Shown in pieces: positions 34,802-60,922 of a stretch of 62,801 nt of DNA (the stretch's first letter is position 1; the number at the start of each line of letters is the position of its first letter). The notes beneath the pieces were generated by a model that saw nothing but the letters and a program-made list of their open reading frames with translations, had not been told where the DNA came from and made no database searches. The DNA lies in assembly GCA_001898835.1 (NCBI GenBank), contig MKVM01000001.1, forward strand, positions 562,814 through 625,614, read 5' to 3'. The position numbers and the translations under genes were made by a program. Origin of the DNA: Micrococcales bacterium 72-143 (lineage in GTDB: Bacteria > Actinomycetota > Actinomycetes > Actinomycetales > Microbacteriaceae).

Positions 34802-34803
34802 CG

Positions 34804-36587: not shown

Positions 36588-36588
36588 G

Positions 36589-38993: not shown

Positions 38994-39183
38994 CTGAGGA
39001 GACTCCTTCACATGGTGCGCGGGCTGCGGCAGCGATGCCGTGGGTTGATATTGGCACATCATCGCCTCGCTAACGAACCTCACGGGCAAATGCGTCCATT
39101 TCGAAACATAGATTTCACGAAATCAGCACGGAACGACGGATATCTCCTACGGATTCCGCCGTCTTGGCCAGTAGCCTCGTGCC
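38994..39183. promoter_or_regulatory. Divergent pot/ald control region with palindromes
   Basis: This 190-base region separates the divergent pot operon and ald. It contains TTTCGAAA (39099-39106) and, 4 nt on, GATTTC-AC-GAAATC (39111-39124), a perfect 6+6 palindrome. Local base composition is more A/T-rich than the surroundings. Lrp/AsnC-type regulators often control ald genes and bind such sites. No convincing -35/-10 pair for potD was found. Confidence 0.55.
39172..39183 (+). promoter_or_regulatory. -10 element of leaderless ald promoter
   Basis: TAGCCT at 39172-39177 lies exactly 6 nt before ATG 39184, with no Shine-Dalgarno sequence. Confidence 0.5.
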
Positions 39184-40299: not shown

Positions 40300-40304
40300 G
40301 GGGT

Positions 40305-43004
40305 TCATCGGAGCGCGACCCGCGCCCGGCGCGTGACACCTGCTTCGACGAGCCAGGCCTCGTGCTGCCCCGCGAGGGGCGGCAGACCCTCGCGGGCGCG
40401 CGTCAGCATCCGGTGATCAGCACGCGTGCACCCGTGCAGGAGCAGGCGCCCGTCGCGGCGCAGCCGCGTGAGCGCCTGCGGCGCGCTCAGCCACCCCTCG
40501 GGGTCGGACACGAGCACCGCGTCGAACGGGGTGCCCGCCGGTTCGAGCACCGTCGCGGGCACGCCGAGCCGTTGCAGCCGCCCGACCCACTCGGCGGGTC
40601 GCGGACAGACGACGCCCCACGAGGCGTCGGAGGGACGAACCTCCTCGATCTCGGCGCGCCACGGAGGCTGCACGGATGGGGCGACGGCGAACTGCGCCTC
40701 GTGACCGCTCCAGAGCGCCGAACCCGGTCTGCGGTCCGCGCGGAACCCCCGTGCGTCCCCTCCCGCGAGAAGGTGCTCCTCACGCGACGGCATGCGGAGC
40801 AGGACGCGCTGCTCGAACGCGGACCCGGCGGACATCAGGGAACCGCCGGCCGTGCGTGACGACGCCGCGATCGCCGCCCCGTCGCGACGCCCCTCGCGGC
40901 CGACACGGCTCAGCAGCTCGAGGAGCTCGGCTCGCTCCTCGCCGTCGGCACGCGCGAGCAGCACGTCGAGGTCGTCGGCGACCACGAGCGTTCGGCCGCG
41001 TGCGGGCATCGTGAGGGCCTGCCAGAGCTCGGCGGGCTCCCCCGCGATCCAGCGCACCTCGGCGTCCGCCCCGCAGGACAGCATCCGGAGCGCCCCCGTA
41101 CGACCGGAGCCGCTCCCGCCGAGCACGAGCACACCGCCGTGCCGCCACGGGTCGAGCACGAACGGGTCCCGACGCTGGAGCTCGGGACGATCGATGAGCC
41201 CCACCACGCCGGGCCCGGGCGGGAGCTCGCGAGCGTCGAGGAGCGCGGGCAACGGATCGACCCAGGGTCGCGCGTCGGGCACCTCGTGATCGCGCCAGCG
41301 TTCCGCGATCCGCTCCACGAGCTCCGGATCGGATCGCGCCACCTGAACCTGCCGCGACCCGGTGCCGTCGGAGACGAGGGCGCGTCCGCGCAGCTCGCTC
41401 GGGATCGCGGCGGCATCCGGCACCCCGACCGTCGCGACGCTCTCGGCGGCGTCCAGAACCCGCAGGCAGATGCGGATCGTGACGTTGGCGAGCAGCGAGT
41501 CGCGGACGACCCCCGCCGGGCGCTGCGTGCCGAGCACGAGGTGCAGGCCGAGCGAGCGCCCGCGCGCCGCGAGATCGGAGAAGACGTGCTGCAGCTCGGC
41601 ATCCGACCCGAGCAGGGCGGCGTACTCGTCCACGACGACCACGAGCCGGGGCATCGTGCCCACCGGAAGGTCGGGCAGCTCGCGTGCCCCGTGCTCGGCG
41701 AGCACCGCCTCGCGTCGCCGCAGCTCGGCGCGCAGGCTCTGCACGGCCCGCGCGGCGGTCGTCTCGTCGAGGTCGCTCACGATCCCGACCACGTGAGGCA
41801 GCGCGCGCAGGGGCGCGAACGACGCGCCGCCCTTGAAGTCGACGAGGAGGAAACCCAGCTCCGCGGGCGGGCGGCGGGCGGCGAGGGCGAGCACCCAGGT
41901 GACGAGGAGCTCGCTCTTGCCCGACCCGGTCGTGCCTGCCACGAGCGCGTGCGGCCCCTGCGACTCGAGGTCGACGAGCACGGTCCCCTCGTCGCCGACG
42001 CCGATGCACGCTGCCGACGGGTGCGATCGCTCACTGCTCGCGAGCACGGACCGGAGCGCGACGTCACGCGGAAGGGCCGCGCTGCTGCGCCATCCGAGCG
42101 CGCGCGCCTGGGCGGCGAGACGCGCGGCGATGCGGTTCGCCTCGGCTGCCCCGAGAAGCGCGGGACTCCACGCGCGCACGCCGTCGACCCCGGGGCCGCC
42201 GAGCGTGGCGCCCTCCTCGTCGACCCCGAAGTCGACGCGTGGCGATGCAGCGGAGGCGGCGAACCGACGGATGCGGAGCATCGGCTCGTCACCGGCCGTG
42301 ACGCTCCAGTCCGCTGCCCGGGCGACGGTCGCGGGGAGGAGGGCCGCCCAGTCCTCGCCGGCTGGGACCGTGACGCGCGCCGTGCCGGGCGCGCACCGCG
42401 CGACCCCCTGCAGCACGAGGCCCCGCGCGAAGGCGCGCGCGAGTGGCTCCACACCGGTGACGACGAGCTCGCTCCCCTCGACGACGATGGGGTTGTTCTC
42501 GATCGTCTCGGTCGACGCACGCAGCCGGGCGATCTCATCCGCCAGCTCGGGTGGCTCGTCGCCGACCAGTCGGACGCCCGAGTCGACCGCGCCCCGGCCG
42601 ATGCACCAGCCGGATGCCGCCGGGTCGAGGGCGAGGTCGGCGAGCGGCGGGACGCGGGTGGCGCGGCGCTCACCCTCCGCGCGCAGCCGGGCGACGAGTT
42701 CCTGCTCGAGCGCCCGCAGCTCCTCCCGCGCATCGACGATCGCCCGGCGGCGCACGCGCCTCGCCGACCTTCTCGCGTCGAGGGCCGTCCCGAGAGCGAC
42801 GAGCGGTCCCAGGAGCCCCACGAGGAGGGCGTACGCGGACGACATGGTGATCCACAGCACGAGCGCGAGGCCGAGGGGCGCCAGCATCGCGACGAGCGGA
42901 AGCCCTCCCCGCGATGCGGGCACGGGGATCGCCGGAAGCGGGATGCGTTCGGGGGGCGGCGCGTTCACCCGTCGATGACAGCACGAGCCCGGGCCGCGCA
43001 TCAC
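40305..43004 (-). CDS. FtsK/SpoIIIE-domain ATPase (EssC/EccC-like)
   Basis: An 899-residue protein, last gene of the nine-gene envelope operon. Two membrane helices lie near the N-terminus (about 28-68). The first FtsK domain has Walker A GTTGSGKS (about 355-365) and Walker B LVVVVDEYAAL (about 455); the second has GGSGSGRTG (about 635) with Arg in place of Lys, and TLVVADDLDVLL, so it is probably degenerate. This resembles the EccC/EssC motor of type VII secretion, but no WXG100 substrate or EccB/D/E partner is seen. GTG 43004, ATG 43001 and GTG 42968 are all possible starts; none has a good ribosome-binding site. Confidence 0.85.
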   Translation of the reverse strand: MMRGPGSCCHRRVNAPPPERIPLPAIPVPASRGGLPLVAMLAPLGLALVLWITMSSAYALLVGLLGPLVALGTALDARRSARRVRRRAIVDAREELRALEQELVARLRAEGERRATRVPPLADLALDPAASGWCIGRGAVDSGVRLVGDEPPELADEIARLRASTETIENNPIVVEGSELVVTGVEPLARAFARGLVLQGVARCAPGTARVTVPAGEDWAALLPATVARAADWSVTAGDEPMLRIRRFAASAASPRVDFGVDEEGATLGGPGVDGVRAWSPALLGAAEANRIAARLAAQARALGWRSSAALPRDVALRSVLASSERSHPSAACIGVGDEGTVLVDLESQGPHALVAGTTGSGKSELLVTWVLALAARRPPAELGFLLVDFKGGASFAPLRALPHVVGIVSDLDETTAARAVQSLRAELRRREAVLAEHGARELPDLPVGTMPRLVVVVDEYAALLGSDAELQHVFSDLAARGRSLGLHLVLGTQRPAGVVRDSLLANVTIRICLRVLDAAESVATVGVPDAAAIPSELRGRALVSDGTGSRQVQVARSDPELVERIAERWRDHEVPDARPWVDPLPALLDARELPPGPGVVGLIDRPELQRRDPFVLDPWRHGGVLVLGGSGSGRTGALRMLSCGADAEVRWIAGEPAELWQALTMPARGRTLVVADDLDVLLARADGEERAELLELLSRVGREGRRDGAAIAASSRTAGGSLMSAGSAFEQRVLLRMPSREEHLLAGGDARGFRADRRPGSALWSGHEAQFAVAPSVQPPWRAEIEEVRPSDASWGVVCPRPAEWVGRLQRLGVPATVLEPAGTPFDAVLVSDPEGWLSAPQALTRLRRDGRLLLHGCTRADHRMLTRAREGLPPLAGQHEAWLVEAGVTRRARVALR

Positions 43005-43055
43005 GGAGCTGCCGCCGCTACGGGGACGGATGGATCGCGCGCGGCCTGGGGAGGA

Positions 43056-43970
43056 TCAGCTGACGACGAAGAACTGCTCGCCGATCTCGACACGGCTGCC
43101 GCGCGCGATCATGTAACGCTTGCCGGGCTCGCACCGCACGACCGGCGCATCCGGCTGCCGGATCACGGTGCCGTTCGTGGAGTAGCGGTCGGCCACCCAG
43201 AACCGCCCGCCCTCCTGCCCGAACTCGACATGCGACTTCGAGACCGACTTCCCGACGTCGAAGATGGGGACCAGCTCGTCGACGTACTCGCCCGGTTCCG
43301 GCGAGGGGTTGCGGCCGATGAGGCCGGTGCCCGCGACCACGATGCTCTCCCCCGTGCTGAACTGCAGCACGTACCGCTCGCCCGGGGCGCGCGCGGCGAC
43401 GATGCGCGTGCTCTCGATGTCCTCGAGGGACGCCGGCTGCGGTGCGAGGAAGCGGGTGGGCGGCACCCCGCTCGCGGAGCCCTCGCCCCACTCCACGGGG
43501 AGGAGCGGCTCGGAAGCCGGCTCGACGCCGTCGGCGGCGGCGTCGAGCCCGTCGACGGGCGCGGACTCCTCGGCGCCAGCGAACTCCCCGGGGAGGTCGG
43601 CCTCGCCCGGAGCGTCGGGCTTCTCCGAGGCACCGGGTTCCCCCGCGGAGTCGTCGCGCAGATCGAGAGGCGGCTCGGACACGGTGTCGGGGCGCACCGG
43701 ATCCGGGATCGGGGTGGCCCCCGTCATCGGTCGCAGGACGAACCCGCACTCGCCGCAGAAGATGTCGCCGTCATCGATCGCGCTCCCGCACTGCGGGCAG
43801 TGCGGCGCGTGGAGCCCCGGCGACGCGGGCGCTACGGCAGCGACGGGGGTAGAGGGGGAAGCAGTAGCCGCCGGTCGCGCCACCGGTGCCGGCTCGGCCA
43901 CCGACCGCCCGCACTCGACGCAGAAGAGAGCCCCCGCGGGCAGCGGGGTGCCGCAGTAGCCGCAGTTCAT
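43056..43970 (-). CDS. Double zinc-ribbon FHA-domain protein
   Basis: A 304-residue cytosolic protein. Two N-terminal zinc ribbons use Cys3, 6, 17, 20 and Cys58, 61, 72, 75. An acidic, Pro/Glu-rich linker (about 85-170) follows. A C-terminal FHA domain (about 205-304) shows GLIGRNP (216-222), SKSHVEF (244-250) and DRYSTNGT (261-268), the phosphothreonine-binding pattern. It should read phosphorylation by the kinase at 54584. Thr188 in DIESTRIV, just before the FHA domain, is a possible phospho-site by analogy with other FHA regulators. GAGGAGC precedes the ATG, which overlaps the upstream stop. Confidence 0.85.
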   Translation of the reverse strand: MNCGYCGTPLPAGALFCVECGRSVAEPAPVARPAATASPSTPVAAVAPASPGLHAPHCPQCGSAIDDGDIFCGECGFVLRPMTGATPIPDPVRPDTVSEPPLDLRDDSAGEPGASEKPDAPGEADLPGEFAGAEESAPVDGLDAAADGVEPASEPLLPVEWGEGSASGVPPTRFLAPQPASLEDIESTRIVAARAPGERYVLQFSTGESIVVAGTGLIGRNPSPEPGEYVDELVPIFDVGKSVSKSHVEFGQEGGRFWVADRYSTNGTVIRQPDAPVVRCEPGKRYMIARGSRVEIGEQFFVVS

Positions 43971-46273
43971 GCGCTGCTCCTCGGGCGTCGCAGGAGCTGG
44001 CGGACGGCGCCCCCGCCGAGGGAGCGCAGCGACACGAGCGCACGGATGCGCTCGCGCCGCGTCCGCGAGGCGTCGAGGGAGTGCCGGAGCTCGCCGACGG
44101 CGGTCCAGACGCGGTCGGCATCCGCCTCGCTCGGCGGGTCGGGGGCGAACACGGCGCGATCGACGACGGCCGCGAGCACACGCGACGGGAGCGTGCCCAC
44201 CGCGGCGGCGAGCTCGGCGCGCGTCGCCGCGGGAGGCGGCGCGATCCCGCGATCCACGACGAGGTCGGCGAACTCGTCCCATCCCCCGCGGATGCGCTCG
44301 ATCGCGGCGGGCGCCGTGCGGCGCAGGTGCCGCCGACGCAACTTCGCGCCGATCACCACGAGGAACGGCGACAGGGCGATGAGCAGGGCGAGGGTCCCCA
44401 CGCCCACGACCCGCGCCACCTGCAGGAGCACCTCGAGGGTCGTGTCGGGCACCACCGGATCGTCCGCGGCCGTATCCGGGTCGACCTGCTCGTCGCGCGG
44501 GTCCGGCCTGTCGGCGGGGGGCGGCACGATCGACTCGGGGCGGGAGATGGGCGTCGGGTCCTCGGGCTCCTCCTCGGGGATGGGGCGCACCGGCGGCACC
44601 GGGTCGACGGCGACCCAGCCGGCGCCGGCGGTGGCGACCTCGATCCACGCCGTGATGTCGCCGCCGCGCACGACCGTCGTGGCGTCGGCACCCGCCGATT
44701 CGGGCGCGAAGCCCACGACGACCCGTGAGGGGAAGCCGAGCCTCGTGGCGATGAGGGATGCGGCGACGGCGTACTGCTCGGCGTCGCCGATCATCTGGGA
44801 GCCGTCGAAGAGCTCCGCGATGCGATCCAGCGAGTGTCCCGAGCGGCTCGCCGGCTCGTCCGGCGAGAGGCCGTGGCTGATGTATCCCTCGGTGCGCAGG
44901 TGGTCGATCGCGGCGACGAGCTGCGCGCCCGCCCCCTGGATGCCCTGCACCCAGCCGTCGAGCGTCGTCGTGAGCTCCTCCGGCGGGTCCGCGGTCCTCG
45001 GCACATCGGCGGCGCCGGGGACCGCGCTGCCGAGTCCCTCCAGCGCGACCGGGCGTGGCAGCACCGCGTCGAGCCGGTACCGGTCGCCGGCGCCGACGCC
45101 GTCGAGCTCGACGGCGGTGCCGCTCGTGCCGTTGAAGGCGAAGCCGTCCTCGAGCCGCGCCCCGTCGGCTCCGCGGAAGTCGATGTCCTCGAGCATCCCC
45201 ACGGTCGGCACCCACACGCCCGAGTAGCCCTCGAGCTCGACGTCGACCTTCACCGCATCCGTGCCGGACGCCGTCTGATCGACGCGCGAGGGCATCCGTA
45301 CGAACACACCGGAGGCCGAGTCGACGCTCGCGCTGCCGACCGCGTAGACGACACCGTCATAGCTGTCGAGCGTCGCGATCCGGATGCGGGCACCCGACGG
45401 CAGGCCGGTCACCCGCATCATGACCTCGTCCACGCGGTCGTCGCGCAGGTACCTGCGGAATCCCGCGAGCGGGCTCGTGTGGTCGCGCGGCTCGAACGGC
45501 TGGACGATCGCGGTGCGGAGCACCTGGCGGTCGCCGTTCGGCTGCAGGACGATGCCGGTCACGAGGGAGCCGAATGCCGCCACCGCGAACACCAGCACTC
45601 CCCCGATGAGGGTGCGCGCCTCGACGCCGAGGCGGAAGCCGGCGCCTGCCGCGTCGCGTTCGCGACCGCGGGTCGCCGCGCGACGGCGGCGCCAGCGCCA
45701 CCAGCTGATCCAGCCGACGCCCGCGACGAGGATCCCGATGCCGAGCGGGATCGGCGCCGTCGCGGTGCTCGGCCCGAACGCGATCCCCACGAGGAACACC
45801 AGAACGGGCGGGATCACGGCGAACTCCCCGTATCGTGCCCGCAGGGCGATGCTGCCCGCGACGACGGTCGCCGTCAGCAGGAGCACGAGCGCGGGCACGA
45901 GCAGCGCCTGGTAGTCGCCCACCGGGAGCGTGATCGTGAGCAGCTGCTTCCAGCCGAGGGCGACGCCCGCGAAGAGCTCGACGAGGCCGTCGACGCTCGG
46001 CAGCACGCCTGCGATCGCCTTGCCCGGTACGGCGAGCGGCACGCCCACGAGTGCGAACACCGCGACGGTGACCACCCCGACGAGCCACGCCCGCCAGCGG
46101 AACAGCGCCCCGGCGAGCGCGACGAGCGTGCCGAGCGCGACCGCGACGACGGCCAGCACGACGTATGCGCTCGACTGGTAGATCGGCCACAGCATCACCG
46201 CGGCGAGCCCCATGAGCAGCCACAGCTGTGCGACGTCGCCGAGAGAGCTGAGCGTCGGGCGCGCGGTCCTCAT
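43967..46273 (-). CDS. Transglutaminase-like (TgpA/DUF3488-type) membrane protein with missing catalytic residues
   Basis: A 768-residue protein: six or seven N-terminal membrane helices (about 15-260), an extracytoplasmic transglutaminase-like domain (about 270-570), one more helix (about 625) and a cytoplasmic tail. In active relatives the core has a Cys in a GxCExxA motif and a His in an HAWVE motif. Here the matching segments read GDAEQYA (about 494-500) and ITAWIEV (about 539-545), so Cys is Ala and His is Thr; the third residue, Asp in GWVAVDP (about 553), remains. It is probably a non-catalytic binding domain. It sits between DUF58 and FHA genes with 4-nt overlaps. Confidence 0.87.
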   Translation of the reverse strand: MRTARPTLSSLGDVAQLWLLMGLAAVMLWPIYQSSAYVVLAVVAVALGTLVALAGALFRWRAWLVGVVTVAVFALVGVPLAVPGKAIAGVLPSVDGLVELFAGVALGWKQLLTITLPVGDYQALLVPALVLLLTATVVAGSIALRARYGEFAVIPPVLVFLVGIAFGPSTATAPIPLGIGILVAGVGWISWWRWRRRRAATRGRERDAAGAGFRLGVEARTLIGGVLVFAVAAFGSLVTGIVLQPNGDRQVLRTAIVQPFEPRDHTSPLAGFRRYLRDDRVDEVMMRVTGLPSGARIRIATLDSYDGVVYAVGSASVDSASGVFVRMPSRVDQTASGTDAVKVDVELEGYSGVWVPTVGMLEDIDFRGADGARLEDGFAFNGTSGTAVELDGVGAGDRYRLDAVLPRPVALEGLGSAVPGAADVPRTADPPEELTTTLDGWVQGIQGAGAQLVAAIDHLRTEGYISHGLSPDEPASRSGHSLDRIAELFDGSQMIGDAEQYAVAASLIATRLGFPSRVVVGFAPESAGADATTVVRGGDITAWIEVATAGAGWVAVDPVPPVRPIPEEEPEDPTPISRPESIVPPPADRPDPRDEQVDPDTAADDPVVPDTTLEVLLQVARVVGVGTLALLIALSPFLVVIGAKLRRRHLRRTAPAAIERIRGGWDEFADLVVDRGIAPPPAATRAELAAAVGTLPSRVLAAVVDRAVFAPDPPSEADADRVWTAVGELRHSLDASRTRRERIRALVSLRSLGGGAVRQLLRRPRSSA

Positions 46274-47643
46274 GCGACCGCCGCCGATCTCGCGAGGGCG
46301 AGCCGCAGCTCGTCGAGGTACCCGATGGTGATGACGTTGACGCCCGCGAGCCGTCGCATGCCGGGCACGGCGTCCGGGTCGCACACGACCGCGACGACCT
46401 CGACATCCTGCGGGAAGGCCGCGGCGGCGATGCGGAGCTCGGCGGCCGCGGTGCGTGAGCCGCACACCAGGAACGCGACCGAGATGCCCGGCGTGCCGTC
46501 CGCGACGATGCGGGCCATGTCGCGGACCGGCAGCGCGTCGACGGAGGCGTTCACGACCGCGAGCTCGTCGAGGAGCCGGTCGGGCTGGTGGGTGGCGAGG
46601 GGATGCACGGCGTAGAGGCGCCGCTTGGCGAACTCGGGCGTGATGGCCGAGACGACGACGGAGACGGTGCGCCCGTCGCGGATGGCGCGCACTCCGAGCG
46701 AGCCCGCGGCGCTCACGGCGAGCTCGAACTCGTCTTCGCTCGCGAAATCGTGGGTGGAGAGGCTCAGCGCCACGACCAGGTGGCTGCGGCGGGTCTGCTC
46801 GAACTGCCGCACCATGTAGGTGCCCGTCTTCGCCGTTGACTTCCAGTGGATGTAGCGGCGATCGTCGCCCGTCTGGTACTCGCGGAGCGCGTGGAACGCG
46901 ACATCGCTCGCCGTGAGGTCGCGCGTCGGGCTGCCCTCCAGGTCTCGGATGAGTCCCGTGCTCGTGGAGGGGACGCTCACCGTTCGCGGGTGCACGACGA
47001 GTTCGAGCCGCTCGGTCCAGCTGAGCTCGCGACGGATGAGCCCGAGGGGATCGCCCCGCACGGTGCGGACGGGTCCGACGGCGATGACGCCCCGGCGCTC
47101 GGTGGGGATGGCGAAGTCCTGGGTGTGCGCGGTGGCGCGCCGCAGGCCGGGAAGCGCCAGTTCGACGACCGCGCTGCCGACCGGCACCTCCATGACGGTG
47201 CCCAGGCGGCGTCCGCCGGCGTTGTCGACCGTCACCGCGCCGCGGGCATCCTCTCCGACGACGGCACGCCGGTGCGGGAGGGTGAGCGTCATGCGGTAGG
47301 GCGCGCGCCCGACGAGGAAGGCGGCCGCCGCGAGGGCGAGCAGCACGGCGGTCCAGCCGGCCGCGACGAGCTCGAGCCAGCCGAGGGTGTAGCCCGCACC
47401 GAGCGCGAGCGGGATAACGGCGAGCACGACCCAGCCGAGCGGCGTGATCACGGCGCTCAGCCGCCTGCCGACGGTGGCGAGCGCCCGGCCGATCGCGCGC
47501 GTTCCGCGCACGACCGCGACGACGGCGTCCGCGAGCACGCCTGTGCGCGCCCCGACGATGCGGGCGCGCGTCGTGCCGAGCCCCGCCGTGTCGGATGTCG
47601 TCGTCGACTCGCGGGGACGAGTCGACCGGCCGGGATGGGTCAC
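46270..47643 (-). CDS. DUF58 domain-containing membrane protein
   Basis: A 457-residue protein. After an extended polar N-terminus (1-65) come two membrane helices (about 68-112), then a beta-rich region and the DUF58 core with YQTGDDRRYIHWKSTAKTGTYMVRQFE (about 253-279) and a von-Willebrand-like C-terminal half. DUF58 proteins nearly always pair with MoxR ATPases, as here. Their molecular function is not settled. The GTG start overlaps the MoxR stop and the stop overlaps the TgpA-like start. Confidence 0.88.
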   Translation of the reverse strand: MTHPGRSTRPRESTTTSDTAGLGTTRARIVGARTGVLADAVVAVVRGTRAIGRALATVGRRLSAVITPLGWVVLAVIPLALGAGYTLGWLELVAAGWTAVLLALAAAAFLVGRAPYRMTLTLPHRRAVVGEDARGAVTVDNAGGRRLGTVMEVPVGSAVVELALPGLRRATAHTQDFAIPTERRGVIAVGPVRTVRGDPLGLIRRELSWTERLELVVHPRTVSVPSTSTGLIRDLEGSPTRDLTASDVAFHALREYQTGDDRRYIHWKSTAKTGTYMVRQFEQTRRSHLVVALSLSTHDFASEDEFELAVSAAGSLGVRAIRDGRTVSVVVSAITPEFAKRRLYAVHPLATHQPDRLLDELAVVNASVDALPVRDMARIVADGTPGISVAFLVCGSRTAAAELRIAAAAFPQDVEVVAVVCDPDAVPGMRRLAGVNVITIGYLDELRLALARSAAVA

Positions 47644-48611: not shown

Positions 48612-48636
48612 GGGATGTCCTCTCGGGTGGGGTGGG

Positions 48637-51600
48637 TCAGTGCGGCGTGCTCGCCCAGTTGTATGTTCGCGTATACGTCGTGCCGTTGGCGTTCACCGTG
48701 ACGACGAGGTCGGGGTAGTCGTTGCCGAGCACGCCGCCGCCGACGACCTCGCATTGCGGGGTTCCGGGGTCGTCCGATCCGCCGCAGCCGAGCGTGACGG
48801 CGTCGTATCCGGGGACACCGGCGGATGCCACCACGGGGGCGCTGGTCCAGGTCCAGTAGCCCTCCCCGGGGGCGAGCCCCGTGAGCGGGGGCACGGTCTC
48901 GATCGCCTGGAGCCCGGTGAGCTGGATGCTCACCGGGCGGCCGAGATGGATCGGGGCCGACCAGTTGGCGCTGCAGAGCAGCACCTCGGGGTACTGGTGG
49001 CAGGCCTTGAGCTCGACGCTCACGTCGTTGCCGTAGTGCGTCGTCCCCGAGGTCAGGTAGGAGCCGAGCGGGACCGGCGACGACTGGGTCGCGTCCGTGG
49101 TGCCGCCGCTCAGGCGGTAGATCACGGAGTCGGCGCTCGCTCCACCGCCGGTCGTGATCCCCATGAGGCGGAAGTCCCAGTAGCCCCCGTCGCGGGCGGT
49201 CGGTCCGCTGACCGTCGCGTCCGTGACGTCGCCGGGCTGGGCGCGAGGTGTGGCCACGACCGTGGCAGAAGCGGTGCAGCCCTGGCCGTTGTACGCGTAG
49301 ACCGTGAAGCTGTAGCTCGTGTCGGGGGTGAGTCCGGAGAAGGTCGCGCTCGTCGCCGTGCCCACCGACTGCACGCCCGAACCGGACGGCGGGGTGAATG
49401 TGGGCGATCCCGTCTCGACGCCGGTCACGGTGCAGCTCGGGGGCGTGCCGTCGTGGCGGGCCACGTAGTAGTCGGAGATCGCGCGCCCGTTGTCGGAGAA
49501 CGCCCCCGCCCAGCTCACGCTGGCGGTCGTGCCGTCGGTCGTGGAGGCGGATGCGCTCGGGCTCGCGCTGAGGATGGGTGCGCCCGCCGGGGTCGCGGTG
49601 CCGCCCGCCTCGTTCCAGGTCGCGAGCGAGTTGGGGGCCTTGTTGCGTGCGCTCACCGAGAAGCTCGCGGCGCTGCCGTTGGCGATGGCCGGGTTCGCGA
49701 CGATCCGGGAGTACTCGGTGCCGACCGCGTCGCTCGTCGGGACCGTGACGGTGACGCTCTGGCCCGCGACCGTGACGAGATAGGAGTCGATCGGGGTCCC
49801 CGAGCTCGCGGACGGCTTGCGCCACACGACGCGCAGCCCGTGGTCGACCGGGGTCGCCGCGACGGATGCCGGGGGCGGCGGGATGACATCCGACCAGATC
49901 GTGCCGGGGAGCTGGCTCGGGTCGGACTCCCCGATCGCGTTGACCGCGACGACCGAGAGACGCAGGGCGTAGTCGGGTCCGTTGCCGGGCGTCGCGATCG
50001 TGCATCCGGCGGTGAGCGTGCAGCTCGTGGTGGAGGTCGATCCGCCGGCCGCGCTCACCGCGGCGACACGGTACTCGGTGATGGGCGAGTTGTTGGCAGG
50101 CCCGGGCGACCAGGACAGGCGCAGCATGCGGTCGCCGAACTCCACGACCCGCAGGTTGCTGACGGGGTCCGGGACGTCCTGCACCGAGACGGTCACGAGC
50201 CCCCAGGTGTAGCGCTCGCTGTCGCCCGTCGCATCCGCGACCTGGTACTGCAGCGTGACGTCGACGGGCTCGGCCGTGTCGGACACCGTGACGGTGAGCC
50301 GCGAACGGTCGGCACTCGGTGAGATCCCGATGCCCGCGGGCAGGCTCGCCCCGTCGAGCCCGCGGATGGCGACCACCCGCAGCGGCACCTCGGGGAACGG
50401 GTTCGTGGCGTTGTCGTTCGCGAGCACGTCGATGACCGTGGTCTCGCCGCGCTTGGTGATCGCGCGGTCGGGCGCCGGGCGCGCAAGGGGCCTCGTCGAG
50501 GGCACCACCCGCAACTGGACGCGCCCCGCCTGGCCCTCGGTGAGGGCGTCGCGCACCGCGAGGGTGATGCTCGTCGTGCTGCCCTTGATGGCCGCGGCGT
50601 CCGCCGTGACGAGCAGCCGCTGGCCGTTGAGCTGGTAGCTGAAGCCGGTGGGCAGCGGCTCGAGCACCGTGTAGCTCAGCTCGTCGAGGTCGTTGTCGTA
50701 GGGGTACTTCGTGAGCTTGACGAGGTCGAGCTCCTTCTGTTGCCCCGGCTCGAACTCGACCACACCGCCCGTGAACACCGGCGGCTGGTTGTCGCGCGGC
50801 TGCACCTGGATCGGCAGCGAGAGCGTCGTGACGTGCCCGTTCGGATCGGAGGCCGAGGCGCCGTCCGTCACCTCGAAGCTGATCGAGGCCGGGCCCCAGT
50901 AGCGGTCGGCCGAGGTGTACTGCAGCGTGCGCTCGTCGACGACGAGCGGGTCGCCGTTGGCGTGAGTGGCGCGCACCGTGCTGGGGTCGGTGATCCGCAC
51001 ACGGGAGCCGCCGAGCGCGACGACGTACTGCGAGAGGTCGATGCGCAGGGTCGACTCGCTCTTGACGACGAGCAGCGGCGCCTTGGTGTTGATCTGCGGC
51101 AGGGCGTCGTCGTAGCCCGGCACCCAGATGAACGCGTACGAGCGGACGGCGGAGTTCTCGGGGTGCACGACGGCGAACGGGATGATCTGGCTGCGGTTGC
51201 CGATCTCCACCCGGATGCGCTTGTTGGGGAGCACCTGGGCCGAGGTGCCGAAGCCCGGCACGAGCTCGACCCCGAGATCGCGCACGTCGCCGTCGGCGAA
51301 GAACACCCGATCGAGCACGGCGACGTCGACGGTCTCCCGGTCGAGCACGTCGGTCACGCTCAGCACGGAGTCCTCGACGCTCGGGCGCGACAGCGGGGCA
51401 TCGTCGTCCACCGTGACGCGGATGAAGTTGGAGCTCGTCCCGCCCGTCGCGTTCTCGATCGTGTAGATGACGCTGTAGTCGCCCACCTGTCGCGGCGGCG
51501 TGATCTTCACGATGTCGTCGCCGACGATCTCGGCCGCGACGTCGGCCGTCGTCGGCTCCACCTGGCGGATGCTGAGCGCCGCGCCGTCGGGGTCGGAGTC

Positions 51601-54582
51601 GTTGAGGAGGGCCCGCACCGACACCGTGCGACCGGGCCGCACGCTCACCGTGTCGAGGTTCGCCACCGGGTTGCGCCCGCCCTCCAGCGCCGGCGAGATG
51701 CCCACCCGGATCGTGCCGGTGGCGCGGGCGCCCAAGCCGTCGACCACCGCGTACTGGAACACGTCCGTGCCGGAGGAGTAGTCGCCCGCCTGGTACTCGA
51801 TCGTGCTGCCGTCGACCTTCAGCACGGTCCCCTTCTCAGGGTTGGTGACCTGCCCGATGAGCTGCACGGCGTCGCCATCCGGGTCGATCCCGCTCGTGGG
51901 CACGTCGATGCGCACCGTGTTCCCGGCGAGGACGCGCGCCGTCACCGTGCGCGGTACCGGCGGGTTGTTCGTGGCGGCGTTGCGCTCGCGGACCGAGATG
52001 GTGACGCGCGCCTGGGCGGTCTGGCCGTCTGCACCGGAGATGCTGTAGATCGCCGTGTAGTTGCCCGCCGTCTCGGGTGCGAGGTAGCGCAGCCGGTCGC
52101 CCGAGACGAACAGCAGGCCCGCATCCCCGGAGAGCGGCTGCGCGAGCTCGGGATCGAGGGTGATCTCGTCGCCGTCGGGCTGCTCGTCGTTGTCGAGCAC
52201 GGGGATGTCGATCGCGTCCCCGACGCGCACGGTCGCCTGGTCGTCGGTCGCGATGGGCGGCTGGAGACGCAGCGGCGTCGGGATCTCGACCACGGAGATC
52301 GTGCCCTCGGCCTCCGCGAGGCCGTTGCTGATGCGGTAGTTGAACGTCACCGTGTCGTCGAGCGGCGCCCTCAGCGTCACGCGGATGCGCCGCTGGTCGA
52401 GCACCTCGACCTGGAGCCCCGATCCGGTCGGGACGTTCATGACGCCCGTCACGACGAGCACGCCGCCCGCGGGGTCGATGTCGGTCGTCGGCGGGTCCAC
52501 CGTCTGCGAGCTCTGCGCCCTGATGAACATCGTCTTCGGCACGGTGATCGGGCGCGTCGAGGCATCCGCCGGGGCGGTCACGTCGACGCGCACCGTGCCT
52601 GTCGCGGTCTGCGTGCCGTCCGTCACGGTGAACTCGATGTAGTGCGTTCCCACCTGCTCGGACTGGAAGGTGAAGGTGCCCGCCTCGAAGCTCGCGACGA
52701 TCGTCGTGCCCGCCTTGGGCGGCACCCCGCCGAGACGGATGGTGCCGTTGCCGCCGCGCACGTGGGCGAGCGGGCGGATGGTGACCTCGTCGCCCGCGGT
52801 CGCGAGCGCGACCCAGGGCTCGACCAGGATCGGGACCTCCCCGCGCGGCCGCACCGTCACCTGCAGGCTGCCGGCCGCCTCCGTGCGCCCGTCCGAGACC
52901 GTGAGCGCGACCGTCTTCTGACCCGTCGTCTCGCCGCCGTCGGTGTACACGACGACGCCGTCGGGTTTGTAGCCGACCTGGTCGGGTGCCGCGATCGACG
53001 CCCCCGTGAGGTAGATCGCGTCGCCGTCCGGGTCGACCCAGTCGCCGATCACCTGGGTCGAGACGCGGCCGCCCTGGCCGACCGTCGCCGTCGAGCTTCG
53101 CACCTGATGCGGCGGGGAGTTCTCGTCGTCGCCGCGCACCTGGAGGGTGACGGTGGCGCTCGCGCTCCCGCCGCGGCCGTCGCTGATCGTGTAGGGGAAG
53201 GTGAAGGTGCCGGTCGCCGTCGGGGCGAGCGTGATCTGCAGCTGCTGGTTGCGGCTCACGAGGTCGATGCGGCCGACGGCCTCGTCGATCGCCCCCACCT
53301 GCGTCACGACGAGGACGTCGCCGTTGGGGTCGTAGTCGTTGAGCAGCACGGGCAGCACGCTCGCACGTCCCGGGCGCGCGCCGAACACGTCGTCGACGGC
53401 GACGGGCGGCTGCTGGAGCTCCTCGAGCTGCGGGGGCGTCTGATCGTCCGCCTCCGGCTGCTCCTGGTGCTGCTCGTCGGCGGTGATGAGCTCGTCCCAG
53501 TTGTCGATGAGCTCGCCCTCGGCCTGCACCGCCCAGCTGGACCCGCTCGTCGCATCGGTGAGGGCGACGCTCCCGCCGTTGACTGCGAAGGACAGTGCGG
53601 CACCGCCGCCCATCCCGTCGAGCGACATCGTCTGCGCATCCGCCGAGCCGCAGCGCCGCCAGGCCTGCCCCGAGGTCCAGGCCGCGAAGCGGCAGCCGCC
53701 GACCACGACGGGATCCGCGGGCACGCCCGAGGCCGCGTCGTCCAGCACCACCGGGTCGCCGGCCTCCATGTCGGCGCCGAGGAGGCCGCCCGAGTGAGCC
53801 ACGAGCACGCGCGCATTGGCGGGCCCCGGCGCCTGGAGCCGGACCGCGGCACCCGTGAGCGCGTTGCCGAGGGGGCGGACGCCGGCGGCCGTCGCCAGCT
53901 CGCGCGTGGTGGTGTCGAGCGCCGCCCAGCGCTCACCGACGGCGGTCAGCTGCACGGCATCCGACGACTGCGCCTCGCCCCCCCACGCGACGTCCCAGCG
54001 CTGCCCCACGACGGAGGCGTCGGGCTCCACGCGCCACACCTGACGCGTCTCGGGCACGTAGGCCAGCAGGGCGCCGGTCTCGCTCACGCTCACGACCGCG
54101 TCCGCGCCGAGGCTGAGCGCCGACGGGGACGCCGCGTCGAAGGTCGCGAGGTCGGCGAGCGGCACGAACCAGACCTCGCCCGTGGTGCGCGCGAGCACCA
54201 CGACCCGGTCGCCGGCGAGCAGCAGCTGCGGATTCTGCGGCGGGAGCGCGATGTCGTCGCCGAGCTGGGCCGTGGCGGGGTCCACCACGCGCACGGTCGC
54301 GCTCCCCGGGTCGACCAGCAGCACCGTGGAGTCCGACTGCACGATCTCCGGCGCGTCCGCGTCGACGGAGAGCACGCTGTCGAGCTCGAACACCTGCGTG
54401 TTGGCACGCCCGATCGCGCGCTCCTCCCGCGAGGAGACCCACACCGAGGGGTCGCTCAGGTCCATGTGCTGCGCCGTGTAGCCCGTGGAGACCACGGCGA
54501 GGGTCGCGATGAGGGCCGCGACGACCGTGCCGCTCGTCAGCGTCGCGACGAGCGAGCGGTGGGAGGAGAGCCAGGAGCGCAC
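48637..54582 (-). CDS. Giant surface protein with N-terminal anchor, Ig/cadherin-like repeats and FN3 domains
   Basis: A 1981-residue protein, by far the largest gene here. A single membrane helix (about 9-30) anchors it with nearly everything outside. Residues about 35-375 look like a propeller-type domain. A Gln/Glu/Pro linker leads to about eleven or twelve tandem 85-100-residue Ig/cadherin-like repeats (about 393-1470), recognisable from recurring VLPVLLNDYDPNGD, SDPDG and DGRGG motifs. Fibronectin type III domains occupy about 1470-1790 and a Cys-containing tail follows. GTG 54582 is 1 nt after the kinase stop, with GGGGG upstream. Adhesion or envelope scaffolding is likely; the exact role is unknown. 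Confidence 0.9.
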   Translation of the reverse strand: MRSWLSSHRSLVATLTSGTVVAALIATLAVVSTGYTAQHMDLSDPSVWVSSREERAIGRANTQVFELDSVLSVDADAPEIVQSDSTVLLVDPGSATVRVVDPATAQLGDDIALPPQNPQLLLAGDRVVVLARTTGEVWFVPLADLATFDAASPSALSLGADAVVSVSETGALLAYVPETRQVWRVEPDASVVGQRWDVAWGGEAQSSDAVQLTAVGERWAALDTTTRELATAAGVRPLGNALTGAAVRLQAPGPANARVLVAHSGGLLGADMEAGDPVVLDDAASGVPADPVVVGGCRFAAWTSGQAWRRCGSADAQTMSLDGMGGGAALSFAVNGGSVALTDATSGSSWAVQAEGELIDNWDELITADEQHQEQPEADDQTPPQLEELQQPPVAVDDVFGARPGRASVLPVLLNDYDPNGDVLVVTQVGAIDEAVGRIDLVSRNQQLQITLAPTATGTFTFPYTISDGRGGSASATVTLQVRGDDENSPPHQVRSSTATVGQGGRVSTQVIGDWVDPDGDAIYLTGASIAAPDQVGYKPDGVVVYTDGGETTGQKTVALTVSDGRTEAAGSLQVTVRPRGEVPILVEPWVALATAGDEVTIRPLAHVRGGNGTIRLGGVPPKAGTTIVASFEAGTFTFQSEQVGTHYIEFTVTDGTQTATGTVRVDVTAPADASTRPITVPKTMFIRAQSSQTVDPPTTDIDPAGGVLVVTGVMNVPTGSGLQVEVLDQRRIRVTLRAPLDDTVTFNYRISNGLAEAEGTISVVEIPTPLRLQPPIATDDQATVRVGDAIDIPVLDNDEQPDGDEITLDPELAQPLSGDAGLLFVSGDRLRYLAPETAGNYTAIYSISGADGQTAQARVTISVRERNAATNNPPVPRTVTARVLAGNTVRIDVPTSGIDPDGDAVQLIGQVTNPEKGTVLKVDGSTIEYQAGDYSSGTDVFQYAVVDGLGARATGTIRVGISPALEGGRNPVANLDTVSVRPGRTVSVRALLNDSDPDGAALSIRQVEPTTADVAAEIVGDDIVKITPPRQVGDYSVIYTIENATGGTSSNFIRVTVDDDAPLSRPSVEDSVLSVTDVLDRETVDVAVLDRVFFADGDVRDLGVELVPGFGTSAQVLPNKRIRVEIGNRSQIIPFAVVHPENSAVRSYAFIWVPGYDDALPQINTKAPLLVVKSESTLRIDLSQYVVALGGSRVRITDPSTVRATHANGDPLVVDERTLQYTSADRYWGPASISFEVTDGASASDPNGHVTTLSLPIQVQPRDNQPPVFTGGVVEFEPGQQKELDLVKLTKYPYDNDLDELSYTVLEPLPTGFSYQLNGQRLLVTADAAAIKGSTTSITLAVRDALTEGQAGRVQLRVVPSTRPLARPAPDRAITKRGETTVIDVLANDNATNPFPEVPLRVVAIRGLDGASLPAGIGISPSADRSRLTVTVSDTAEPVDVTLQYQVADATGDSERYTWGLVTVSVQDVPDPVSNLRVVEFGDRMLRLSWSPGPANNSPITEYRVAAVSAAGGSTSTTSCTLTAGCTIATPGNGPDYALRLSVVAVNAIGESDPSQLPGTIWSDVIPPPPASVAATPVDHGLRVVWRKPSASSGTPIDSYLVTVAGQSVTVTVPTSDAVGTEYSRIVANPAIANGSAASFSVSARNKAPNSLATWNEAGGTATPAGAPILSASPSASASTTDGTTASVSWAGAFSDNGRAISDYYVARHDGTPPSCTVTGVETGSPTFTPPSGSGVQSVGTATSATFSGLTPDTSYSFTVYAYNGQGCTASATVVATPRAQPGDVTDATVSGPTARDGGYWDFRLMGITTGGGASADSVIYRLSGGTTDATQSSPVPLGSYLTSGTTHYGNDVSVELKACHQYPEVLLCSANWSAPIHLGRPVSIQLTGLQAIETVPPLTGLAPGEGYWTWTSAPVVASAGVPGYDAVTLGCGGSDDPGTPQCEVVGGGVLGNDYPDLVVTVNANGTTYTRTYNWASTPH

Positions 54583-54583
54583 G

Positions 54584-56023
54584 TCAGCCCCCGACCGCGT
54601 CGACGCACTTCTGCGCGCTCGCATCGCCGGTCGTGCCGTTGCGGTTCACCGCGACCGAGAGGCAGACCGTGTCGCCCGGGTCGGCGTCGACGACGAAGCG
54701 GTTCGCCTCCTGGAGTGCCGGCGTCGAGGCGATGCCGTCGTCGGTCACGGCGATCTGGTAGCGGTCGCCGCTGACCAGCCCCGGGTCGCTCCAGCTGAAC
54801 TCGACCCGTCCGTCCCCCTGCAGCTCCGCGCGGATGTCCGACACGACCGGGATCCCCGGACCCACCGTCCGCAGGAGCACGACGAGCGCTACGACGCCGA
54901 GCACCGCGACGAGCGCGGCCGCCCCCGCGAGGATCCACGCCATCCGGCGCAGCCCGGGCGTCGCCTCCGGGACGCTGCGCGAGAACGGGCTCTCGGGACC
55001 GCTCCGCTCCCGCACCGTGCCGACGGGTGCGTACGGCTCCGCGTTCGCGGGGCGGCGCCGGCGGCGCCCGGGGCGGGGCGGGGCGCTTCCCGTGCTCACG
55101 GGGCGCAGCCTCGTGCGCTCCTCCTGATCGGCGACGGTGCCGAGCGCCCAGTCGTCCATCGCGATCTCGGCGGCCGTCTGCGGCAGCCCCAGCTCCGACT
55201 CGACCAGCTGCAGCTCCCGCACGAGCTCGAGGGCGCTCTGCGGGCGCTGCTCGGGGCGCCGCGACATGGCCCGGCGCAGCACCGCCTCGAGGCTCGCCGG
55301 CACGTCCGGACGACCGATCGGCTGGGGCTTGGCGCGCGCGATCCGCCCCATGAGGTCGCTCGAGGTGTTCGCGCCACCTGGAACCTCGAACGGCGAACGG
55401 CCGGCCAGCAGCGAGTACACGGTCGCCGCGAGCGACCACACCTCCGAGGTGATCGAGCCGGGTGTCTCGTCCAGCAGCACCTCCGGCGCCGACCACGGGA
55501 TCGACAGGCCGACCGAGTTCTCGTCCTTCTGGCTGCCGAGGGTCGACGCGATGCCGAAATCGGAGAGCACCGGATGCCCGTAGGCGGTCTGCAGGATGTT
55601 CGACGGCTTGATGTCGCGGTGCAGCACCCCGGCGCGGTGGGCGGTCTCGACGGCCGAGCCGATCTTCACCGCGATCCGCAGCACCTCCGGCACCGGGATC
55701 GGCTCACGCCGGTAGCGCTCGGAGAGCGACGACGAGCACAGCTCCATCACGAGGTAAGGTCTGCCGTCGCTCGACACGCTCGCCTGGTAGACGGTGAGGA
55801 TCGACGGATGCGCGCTCAGCTGCGCCATGAGGTTCGCCTCGGCCTGGAACATCTGGCGCACCTGGTCGTTGACGACCTCGCTCAGCATGACCTTGACGGC
55901 GACCTGGCGCCGCGGCATGTTCTGCTCGTAGAGGAACACGTCGGCGAAGCCGCCGGACCCCAGCACGTGCACGTAGGAGAACCCCGGGAGGACGGGGGGC
56001 TGCGAGGGAAGACGTCGTGCCAC
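54584..56023 (-). CDS. Transmembrane serine/threonine protein kinase
   Basis: A 479-residue Hanks-type kinase. Gly loop GSGGFADV (22-29), Lys44, Glu62, catalytic HRDIKPSN (135-142), DFG (155-157) and SAPE (178-181) are all intact. A disordered basic linker (about 300-355) leads to one membrane helix (361-385) and an extracellular domain of about 95 residues with FN3-like features. There are no PASTA repeats, so it is not a PknB orthologue. It is placed between PP2C and the giant FN3 protein, gaps of 2 nt and 1 nt. It probably phosphorylates FHA-binding partners in this operon. Confidence 0.94.
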   Translation of the reverse strand: MARRLPSQPPVLPGFSYVHVLGSGGFADVFLYEQNMPRRQVAVKVMLSEVVNDQVRQMFQAEANLMAQLSAHPSILTVYQASVSSDGRPYLVMELCSSSLSERYRREPIPVPEVLRIAVKIGSAVETAHRAGVLHRDIKPSNILQTAYGHPVLSDFGIASTLGSQKDENSVGLSIPWSAPEVLLDETPGSITSEVWSLAATVYSLLAGRSPFEVPGGANTSSDLMGRIARAKPQPIGRPDVPASLEAVLRRAMSRRPEQRPQSALELVRELQLVESELGLPQTAAEIAMDDWALGTVADQEERTRLRPVSTGSAPPRPGRRRRRPANAEPYAPVGTVRERSGPESPFSRSVPEATPGLRRMAWILAGAAALVAVLGVVALVVLLRTVGPGIPVVSDIRAELQGDGRVEFSWSDPGLVSGDRYQIAVTDDGIASTPALQEANRFVVDADPGDTVCLSVAVNRNGTTGDASAQKCVDAVGG

Positions 56024-56025
56024 GA

Positions 56026-56862
56026 CTACCCCCTCGCCCCGGTCGAGCCTTCATTGTAGGCAGAGCCTTCCACCCGGTCGGGCGCCTCGAGCACGTCGAT
56101 CACGATGACGGTCACGTTGTCGCGGCCGCCCGCGGCGAGCGCCGCGTCGACGAGCGACCCCGCTGTCTCGATCGCCGAGAGCCGTGCGGCCAGGTGCAGC
56201 CGCAGCCGCTCCGCGGGGAGCTCCTTCGTGAGCCCGTCGGAGCAGATCAGCAGCCGCAGCCCGGCACGGATGGGTACGCGCCAGTAGTCGGGGCGGGGCA
56301 CCTCGCGGAAGCCCAGCGCGCGCGTCACGACGTTCGACTCCGGGTGGCTCTCGGCATCCGCGGCCGCCAGCAGGCCGGCGTCGACGAGCTCCTGCACGAC
56401 GGAGTGGTCGTGGGTGACCTGCGCGAGGTCGTTGCCGAGGAAGCTGTAGACCCGGCTGTCGCCGACGTTGAACACCACGAACGCGGGGTCGTCGGCCGAG
56501 AGGTCGAGCACCGCGCCGGTGACCGTCGTGCCCGCACCGAGCGGCAGATGCTCGGCGAGCTCGTCGATGTCGCGGGCGGCGAGGGTGAGCGCCTCCCCGA
56601 CGTGCGTGCGATCGACCTCCTCACGGTCGGCGAGCGCACTCAGGCGGTTCACCGCCGCCGCGCTAGCGCGGTCGCCCGCCGCATGGCCGCCCATCCCGTC
56701 CGCGACGGCGAACACGGGCGGCCGCACGATGAGGCTGTCCTCGTTCGCCTGACGCCGGCGACCGACGTCGGTGACGGCGGCCCAGGCGAGGACGACGTGC
56801 TCGTCGTCGCGCCCGGGGATCTCGAAGTCGCGACGATGCTCATCCGCCCCGTGCCGCGTCAT
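56026..56862 (-). CDS. PP2C-family serine/threonine phosphatase
   Basis: A 278-residue soluble metal-dependent phosphatase. NED (40-42), VADGMGGHAAGD (53-64), VGDSRVYSF, LICSDGLT and GGRDNVTVIV provide the metal-binding aspartates. No membrane segment is predicted, unlike mycobacterial PstP. It should reverse phosphorylation by the adjacent kinase. The start overlaps the FHA gene by 4 nt, and the stop is 2 nt before the kinase start. Confidence 0.93.
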   Translation of the reverse strand: MTRHGADEHRRDFEIPGRDDEHVVLAWAAVTDVGRRRQANEDSLIVRPPVFAVADGMGGHAAGDRASAAAVNRLSALADREEVDRTHVGEALTLAARDIDELAEHLPLGAGTTVTGAVLDLSADDPAFVVFNVGDSRVYSFLGNDLAQVTHDHSVVQELVDAGLLAAADAESHPESNVVTRALGFREVPRPDYWRVPIRAGLRLLICSDGLTKELPAERLRLHLAARLSAIETAGSLVDAALAAGGRDNVTVIVIDVLEAPDRVEGSAYNEGSTGARG

Positions 56863-57419
56863 CGCGCGCCCCTGTCACGGGGCACGGCGCGCTCGGGTCC
56901 GAGCACCTCGACCACCACGCCCTCCCCCAGATCGATCCGGGTCCCCGGCGTGACGACGACGGATGCGCCGCGCTGCAAGGCCTGAACGGGCGAGCCCGGC
57001 ACGAGCACCTCGCTGCCGTTGAGCGTACGCATGTCGGTCGCGACCACGATGGCGCCCTGCTCGCGCAGCTCGAGGTGGGTCGCCGAGATGCCCCCGTCGG
57101 CGCTCGCGACGCTGACGAGCCGCGGCGACTCCCCCGACAGCACCCGCGCGGGGCGGGGGCTCCGCCCGATGAGCAGCGGCCGGTCGAGCTCCACGGGCTC
57201 GCCGAGCCCCACCCGGATGCGGTGGCGCGGGCGCAGGGCCGCCGGCACGGGCGGCAGCTCCGGAGGCGACGGCCGGCGCGCGGCGCGCGACGGGCCACGC
57301 ACGACGGTGTCGCCGAGGGCGACCTCCACCTCGTCGAGGTCCACCACTGCGCGCGCGAGCCGCTCCCGCACGGCGTGCGGCACGGTGTCGTCGGTGTCAT
57401 CGTGCACGGCGCGGCTCAC
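56859..57419 (-). CDS. FHA-domain protein, first gene of the kinase/surface-protein operon
   Basis: A 186-residue protein. The C-terminal FHA domain (about 80-180) shows LLIGRSPRP, SADGGISATHLELR and DMRTLNGSEV, the phosphothreonine-recognition pattern. The N-terminal part is low-complexity and Pro/Ala-rich. It should recognise phosphorylated Thr on kinase targets. GTG 57419 has GGGAGGGG directly upstream. It is the first gene of the nine-gene operon; a 71-base gap with two short hairpins precedes it. Confidence 0.85.
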   Translation of the reverse strand: MSRAVHDDTDDTVPHAVRERLARAVVDLDEVEVALGDTVVRGPSRAARRPSPPELPPVPAALRPRHRIRVGLGEPVELDRPLLIGRSPRPARVLSGESPRLVSVASADGGISATHLELREQGAIVVATDMRTLNGSEVLVPGSPVQALQRGASVVVTPGTRIDLGEGVVVEVLGPERAVPRDRGAR

Positions 57420-58927: not shown

Positions 58928-58939
58928 GTGCTCACCCTA
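58928..58939 (-). promoter_or_regulatory. -10 element of leaderless patD promoter
   Basis: TAGGGT (complement of 58934-58939) is exactly 6 nt upstream of ATG 58927. The half-site GATTTCGT at 58968-58975 upstream matches one arm of the pot/ald palindrome. Confidence 0.5.
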
Positions 58940-59011
58940 ATCGCTCGCCCCCGCCCCCGGAACTTCTGATTTCGTCGCGATGGCCGCTCCACATTGCGGA
59001 TTCGCTTGTCG

Positions 59012-59041
59012 CGCGTCGCCGGGGATGAGAGAATCGAGCGC
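59012..59041 (+). promoter_or_regulatory. Weak promoter of the Lrp/AsnC regulator gene
   Basis: TTGTCG followed by 17 nt and GAGAAT, ending 7 nt before ATG 59042. The -10 lacks the usual T at position 1, so the call is tentative. It faces the patD promoter within a 114-base intergenic region. Confidence 0.3.
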
Positions 59042-59509: not shown

Positions 59510-59516
59510 TCGCACC

Positions 59517-60920: not shown

Positions 60921-60922
60921 GG

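Follow-up and report, generated by a model that had tools for sequence, protein, structure and literature searches.

The window analysed here, a 62,801-nt stretch of the contig MKVM01000001.1 of Micrococcales bacterium 72-143 (G000:C1:562814-625614 of a 3.33-Mb genome), carries nine tightly packed minus-strand genes that form one unit at 40305-57419 (positions are those of the window). From 5´ to 3´, the unit encodes an FHA protein, a PP2C phosphatase, a Ser/Thr kinase, a giant protein, MoxR, a DUF58 protein, a TgpA-like protein, a zinc ribbon-FHA protein and an FtsK/EccC-like ATPase. With moderate confidence, we read it as an operon of the PFNA type known from Bifidobacterium, with relatives that belong to a T7SSd-like type VII locus; its EccC ATPase is shortened, and the unit would work as an envelope complex with a phospho-switch. 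The family relationship is strongly supported; what the unit does is inferred. The genes are as follows.

56859..57419, minus strand: FHA protein, opening the unit; 45% identical across 95 aa with the FHA part of a paralogue, no Pfam match.
56026..56862, minus strand: PP2C-type phosphatase; PF13672 at 40.6 bits, Stp1-like NF033484 at 186.5 bits (under the cut-off of 230).
54584..56023, minus strand: Ser/Thr kinase; PF00069 at 140 bits, one transmembrane helix (364-382), small two-cysteine ectodomain.
48637..54582, minus strand: giant anchored protein; PF17963 in 8 stretches, PF00041 in 2 stretches, N-terminal helix.
47640..48611, minus strand: MoxR-family AAA+ ATPase; PF07726 at 210 bits.
46270..47643, minus strand: DUF58 protein; PF01882 at 45.6 bits, two transmembrane helices.
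43967..46273, minus strand: TgpA-like membrane protein; PF11992, PF01841 and PF13559.
43056..43970, minus strand: double zinc ribbon and C-terminal FHA protein; PF12773 and PF00498.
40305..42968 (or from a start at 43004), minus strand: short EccC/EssC-family ATPase (FtsK/EccC-like); NCBIfam EssC and EccCa at 199 and 180 bits, below their cut-offs.

Between neighbours there is either a 4-nt overlap or a spacing of 1–25 nt, with the kinase-to-giant-gene distance computed from the GTG start at 54582; the exception is the FtsK/EccC-like gene, which is preceded by 51 or 87 nt depending on its start. A first-pass annotation of the window had placed the unit at 43004-57419 with gaps of at most about 50 nt. 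Its gene content, strand and packing agree with ours, and the gap limit holds everywhere except before the FtsK gene, but the interval is too short because the ninth gene falls outside it. All nine genes are assigned and no unassigned gene is left in the unit; no search was aimed at the EccB, EccD and EccE families.

The PFNA cluster of Bifidobacterium has the order pkb2-fn3-aaa-atp(MoxR)-duf58-tgm, with PP2C and FHA genes in some species (PMC8430577, PMC6803598). The same core order is present in the window, where the kinase, FN3 giant, MoxR, DUF58 and transglutaminase-like (TGM) genes are adjacent on the same strand, and the window family profiles recover the named Bifidobacterium loci. On sequence grounds, we therefore identify these five core genes as the PFNA cluster, and the joining of these families, which had been taken as new, is already published. 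In contrast to PFNA, PP2C and one FHA gene precede the kinase in the window, and the zinc ribbon-FHA and short EccC genes stand downstream; the optional prpC/fha arrangement of PFNA at positions 6–8 is not seen, though both gene kinds are present. PFNA has been stated to be unique to bifidobacteria and its tgm product has been called an enzyme (PMC8430577), and the cluster has been likened to the mycobacterial moxR operon (PMC12067865). However, the PFNA-type core is not unique to Bifidobacterium, since it occurs in many other Actinomycetota, also outside the class of the window. Compared with the MoxR-vWA ternary systems (PMC7159879), the window MoxR gives a weak match (39.5 bits) to the Pfam bpMoxR model, DUF58 replaces the classical vWA protein, no effector domains are seen, and a propeller is only suggested, in the giant protein.

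The link to type VII secretion comes from a paralogous cluster in the same genome (C1, about 1125.7-1149.4 kb), in which all nine window genes are matched at 33–59% identity: MoxR 59%, kinase 50%, PP2C 45%, the FHA proteins 45% and 37%, DUF58 39%, TgpA-like 35%, FtsK 34% and giant protein 33%. The cluster opens with PP2C (cut by the fragment end), an FHA protein of 389 aa, the kinase, a 244-aa FHA-type protein (no Pfam match) and a giant protein of 1865 aa, continues with MoxR, DUF58, TgpA-like, an EccC of 1481 aa and a WXG100-type protein of 88 aa, and ends with a 74-aa protein (WXG-like by script label, no family match), proteins of 465 aa and 158 aa, an FHA protein of 237 aa and a four-hydrophobic-helix protein. 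The 1481-aa EccC bears an N-terminal FHA domain and scores 503 (EssC), 337 (EccCa) and 317 bits (EccCb), all below the cut-offs, and the WXG100-type gene is marginal (26.9 bits against the Pfam cut-off of 27.3). The 465-aa protein that follows the WXG100-type genes (L013:6038-7435) has no family match, and related genes follow EccC in L145, L191, L193 and L194; it is a candidate substrate.

Judged by its gene content, the paralogous cluster is type VII-like and similar to T7SSd (Garrett et al., 2024; PMC11217815). The window shares with T7SSd an EccC/EssC-family ATPase, a transmembrane Ser/Thr kinase as in TsdD, a giant Ig-like extracytoplasmic protein, FHA and the occurrence in Actinomycetota, and the paralogous cluster additionally shares the FHA-fused ATPase and the WXG100-type gene. 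TsdI has a Sec signal and a C-terminal transmembrane segment, whereas the window giant protein has an N-terminal helix without a C-terminal one; TsdD and TsdI are both compared by description and not by sequence. The window also differs from T7SSd in having no WXG100 gene (TsdA) and an ATPase that lacks the N-terminal FHA of TsdC and a separate D3. Because these two defining features, the TsdA WXG100 and the FHA-bearing full TsdC, are absent, we do not claim T7SSd membership for the window. The terms MoxR, DUF58, transglutaminase and fibronectin do not occur in the accessible text of PMC11217815, and a type VII locus in B. longum is mentioned in the accessible part of PMC5758520 without the terms EccC, FtsK or FHA. 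A joining of PFNA or of MoxR-DUF58-TGM with type VII secretion was not found in the literature searched, to which subscription papers mostly did not belong.

The association of the two gene sets extends to other genomes. To measure it, the places of FN3 and EccC matches were compared in 60 genomes, with linkage defined as within 25 kb and the expectation taken from uniform placement. Full FHA-EccC is encoded by 32 genes, 29 of them in FN3-bearing genomes, and 18 of these are linked versus 0.72 expected (at most 7 in 200000 draws); the linked genes span 11 genera and 6 families. Short EccC behaves alike, with 15 linked of the 22 testable (26 genes; 0.66 expected), compared with 2 linked of 24 testable for other long EccC (33 genes; 0.49 expected). 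The EccC classes were assigned manually on the basis of match span and frame length, and the genomes share ancestry, so these numbers measure the strength of the linkage, not a probability. The order FN3-MoxR-DUF58-TGM-FHA-PP2C-FHA-kinase-FHA-EccC-WXG-WXG is found in other genera (L105/L145, with alike downstream halves in L190-L194). The link is also seen outside the class, in L179 (PP2C-FHA-kinase-FN3-MoxR-DUF58-TGM-EccC), L177/L277 and L180/L278, and EccC follows tgm on the same strand in a Cellulomonadaceae locus (L260).

The motor of the window is EccC-like, as the first-pass annotation had proposed, and it is a reduced member of the family. It scores 199 of 778 (EssC), 180 of 509 (EccCa) and 149 of 347 bits (EccCb), under the NCBIfam cut-offs in each case, versus 54.6 bits for FtsK; a DNA-pumping FtsK was rejected because the EccC/EssC models score far higher. 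The protein contains two transmembrane helices, a membrane-proximal domain, an intact motor domain D1 and a degenerate D2-like domain. This is the layout of the EccC/EssC ATPases of type VII secretion (PDB codes: 4nh0, 9qks and 7b9f), including the D1 Walker A/B motifs, and the short-EccC family profile matches 4nh0 at E 3.8e-101; in contrast to these ATPases, the window protein lacks a separate D3 and the FHA domain and stays below the equivalog cut-offs. In the profile comparison with full EccC, the N-terminal part aligns with residues 200–640 (E 7.7e-44), D1 with D1 (E 2.9e-86) and the second domain best with D2 (E 3.4e-32). Nothing in the short protein corresponds to the EccC FHA region (best probability 0.6). 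For its final 160 residues, D3 gives a weak match (E 0.0017, probability 15.5), and a small part of D2 is matched as well (E 0.0002, probability 45.5). The Walker A lysine of D1 is retained in 23 of 23 sequences, and the window protein has a degenerate second P-loop (GSGSGRT). A D1 tree was built from 63 sequences, with one FtsK as the root; 22 short EccC group together in it as a single clade (support 0.946) adjoining the FHA-EccC group, which indicates an old lineage rather than a local deletion; four other short proteins (L130, L133, L134 and L181) fall outside the short clade and three Actinotalea EccC outside both groups. D3 is the WXG100-binding domain of EccC. A WXG100 search of the genome returned two matches, both outside the window, in agreement with the earlier statements that no such gene stands beside the motor and that the unit differs from a plain type VII system. 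That D3 and WXG100 are both missing is suggestive, and a motor without D3 would fit a machine that no longer uses WXG100 substrates.

The unit is conserved. Eight of the nine genomes of the genus (own included) carry kinase, PP2C, giant, MoxR, DUF58, TGM, two FHA and short EccC genes on one strand, so the window unit is not a chance assembly; in the ninth (G006, L069), the contig ends within the unit and an FtsK homologue lies near the start of another contig. In L070 (G005, completeness 89), each of the giant, MoxR and short EccC genes is broken into several frames, as in a decayed copy or through sequencing errors. The 420-aa N-terminal part of the giant protein is matched in 43 of the 60 genomes (own included), and its N-terminal domain in 21 of 296 genomes in a phylum-wide profile search (own included; several matches are short). 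At E 1e-90, the full EccC had matches in 32 of the 396 genomes searched, with neighbourhoods examined for 4 of 20 chosen loci. The five core genes stand on the strand of the giant gene in 66 of the 74 fetched fragments with this gene, some of which overlap (e.g. L109 and L146). Among the exceptions, a fragment or contig end truncates L069, L076, L146 and L178, the kinase of L117 lies further on (L192), and L116 and L180 have no same-strand kinase. In a concatenated tree of the five proteins from 68 loci, the window clade has 28 tips and a second clade has 6 (L122, L123, L124, L126, L185 and L188). A third clade holds the loci linked to type VII genes, and Bifidobacterium and loci outside the class branch close to it or below it; the deep order is uncertain because the tree is a midpoint-rooted FastTree. 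The single conserved unit of the first-pass annotation is supported. A scattering of the genes in most relatives, which that annotation had named as its refutation, is found for some of them and not for others: the five core genes are together on one strand and fragment in all 28 loci of the window clade, but a same-strand short EccC accompanies them in only 17, and in three genomes a short EccC stands with PP2C apart from FN3.

The TgpA-like protein has the TgpA_N, Transglut_core and DUF4129 architecture of the periplasmic transglutaminase of PDB 6g49, which we take to be TgpA. Unlike in TgpA, the catalytic cysteine is replaced in every gene examined here and the histidine in most. In the window, the transglutaminase domain lacks both residues (GDAEQYA, TAW) and the Cys-His-Asp positions read A-T-D. 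Among 73 aligned rows, which represent 71 distinct FN3-linked genes because L105/L145 and L119/L195 are the same genes counted twice, the cysteine is kept in none and the histidine in 8, and GDxEQ[YF]A is nearly fixed. The same genome supplies a single control, a TgpA-like protein next to a different MoxR gene, in which GYC and HAW are retained. In 80 named loci (the best 80 of 574 confirmed stretches; 61 are titled Bifidobacterium), scanned with the cysteine position left free and the neighbouring residues required, this position is Ser in 58, Gly in 13, Asp in 5, Ala in 3 and unread in 1.

The kinase, phosphatase and FHA set, proposed earlier as a phospho-switch, looks intact. By eye, the kinase has HRD and DFG, PP2C its metal-binding motifs and the FHA proteins their characteristic residues, read against motifs that we assume to be the diagnostic ones. 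The first FHA protein (56859-57419) matches 0 Pfam families and is called FHA because of its 45% match to the FHA part of the paralogue; the GR, S..H and NG residues are visible in it. Two cysteines are invariant across 43 aligned kinase ectodomains. The FN3/Ig-like likeness of these ectodomains is weak, with PDB matches at E 0.022–0.98 (fibronectin the best, at 0.022) and fn3 matched at E up to 0.1 by 5 of the 43. In the second clade of the five-protein tree, a further paralogous one, the kinases end in a hydrophobic stretch and have no ectodomain.

The giant protein is 1981 aa long from the GTG start chosen by the coding model (1995 aa from an upstream ATG at 54624), which agrees with the anchored Ig/FN3 protein of about 1980 residues noticed earlier. 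It consists of an N-terminal hydrophobic helix (residues 26–44, counted from 54624), a conserved N-terminal domain of about 400 aa, Big_9/cadherin-like repeats and FN3 domains, and no C-terminal transmembrane segment was found in it. The N-terminal domain is possibly a beta-propeller, as suggested by weak PDB matches (E 0.009–0.93). The first-pass annotation had the assembly or export of the giant protein powered by the motor and MoxR; a role as exported cargo is not supported. Our best reading is that it belongs to the envelope complex instead, because it has its own N-terminal helix, because it is present with MoxR, DUF58 and the TgpA-like protein whatever the EccC type, and because its nearest described analogue, TsdI, is proposed to be a machine component.

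These features can be combined into a working model. The N-terminally anchored giant protein would assemble with the DUF58 and TgpA-like membrane proteins as an envelope complex, which MoxR would remodel. The transmembrane kinase would phosphorylate threonines, and its two-cysteine ectodomain may read the giant protein. The two FHA proteins would read the phospho-marks and then recruit or release the short EccC, with the intact D1 as its motor, and PP2C would reset the switch. Complex formation, the phospho-switch and what the motor moves are inferred, the phospho-switch from the gene set. A bolder version, which we advance tentatively and would place below even chances, is that the PFNA operon and its relatives are an unrecognised type VII branch, in which MoxR, DUF58, the pseudo-TgpA protein and the giant Ig/FN3 protein form the envelope part of T7SSd-like systems; the window would then be a WXG100-free relative, with a D3-less short EccC driving phosphorylation-gated export or assembly.

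Several observations weigh against the main reading of the unit. Short EccC is absent from the fragment in 11 of the 28 window-clade loci, and 11 of the 29 FHA-EccC genes in FN3-bearing genomes are unlinked; members of one genus are also not independent cases in the linkage figures. The giant gene of L104 stands alone, with no core partners, and G024 (L129) has FHA-PP2C-short EccC and no FN3 match in the genome. EccC lies within about 10 kb of tgm in 4 of the 80 named loci and in none of the 61 titled Bifidobacterium, and it is on the strand opposite tgm in the three Actinotalea loci (L268, L272 and L274). No FN3, MoxR, DUF58 or TgpA-like gene was found on the 14-kb fragments of two EccC loci outside the class (L279 and L280). 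In the motor itself, the second domain also matches D3 (E 2.1e-12), less well than D2, as expected because the EccC domains are related.

An envelope-homeostasis module is possible, if somewhat doubtful: the products of the core genes (kinase, giant protein, MoxR, DUF58 and pseudo-TgpA) would by themselves monitor the wall or surface or remodel it, and EccC-type ATPases would be optional additions. The core occurs without EccC in the fetched flanks of the 61 Bifidobacterium loci, 10 of the 28 window-clade loci have no EccC on the fragment (one of them, L091, has a long EccC within 25 kb; in the eleventh locus without short EccC, L092, a long EccC stands on the opposite strand), and MoxR-DUF58-transglutaminase trios are known from other contexts (PMC6803598). 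However, full and short EccC are linked to FN3 loci far above uniform placement, and the link reaches outside the class. The genes may also be unrelated and merely share an operon, which is very unlikely: short EccC and PP2C can sit apart on fragments without FN3 (L127, L128 and L129, with an FHA gene too in L129), and in G010 the two form a pair that is separated from the FN3 locus by about 229 kb (L080, L128), but this gene set recurs twice within one genome and is shared across families and classes.

A working secretion system could instead use a WXG100 protein encoded elsewhere, such as the orphan gene at about 1451.2 kb (G000:C1:1451203; L014:2195-2485). This gene scores 67.5 bits and is matched by 99–101-aa frames in 7 of the 9 genus members (longer frames in the other two), and WXG100 exceeds the cut-off in 57 of the 60 genomes. 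We consider this improbable: the gene lies about 0.83 Mb from the unit, between genes reading as a sensor histidine kinase and GroEL, the short EccC has no separate D3, and, with WXG100 present in almost every genome sampled, co-occurrence carries little weight. A host-immune sensing operon, in which the giant protein acts as an adhesin and binds cytokines, has been proposed for PFNA of B. longum (PMC8430577) and the gene core is the same. As a general role this has very little probability in view of its wide occurrence: the giant protein is found in 43 of the 60 genomes around the window, and the tgm-fn3 locus is present in Cellulomonas and Actinotalea. Both genera are mainly environmental.

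The flanking genes are metabolic and unrelated to the unit, which the FtsK gene therefore closes.

39184-40299, plus strand: alanine dehydrogenase, named from its sequence.
57491-58927, minus strand: aldehyde dehydrogenase (Pfam).

A tenth unit gene at 39115-40308 (minus strand) was rejected, as it has no family matches and the plus strand there encodes the alanine dehydrogenase. The wider surroundings (33434-38993 and 57491-62287), with solute-binding/permease, aldehyde dehydrogenase, aminotransferase and FAD oxidoreductase genes, resemble an amine or polyamine utilisation set. Long opposite-strand open frames at 41139-45227 (plus, 1362 aa) and 50740-54774 (plus, 1344 aa) are likely GC-rich shadow frames because the coding model chose the minus strand. 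A scan for promoters and terminators was uninformative (0 promoter-like sites with 0.3 expected, 3 terminator-like with 1.4 expected). A defence-system label was discarded, since the PADLOC matches look like generic kinase and HerA/FtsK ones.

If the proposed reading is true, it joins the Bifidobacterium PFNA operon, read so far as a host-immune sensor, with the T7SSd secretion subtype, and fn3, MoxR, DUF58 and tgm become candidates for the envelope components that a type VII system still lacks. The tgm product would then be studied as a binding protein and not as an enzyme, and the operon would not be special to gut bacteria. The genus of the window offers a natural pair for such work, with the full and the stripped version in one cell.

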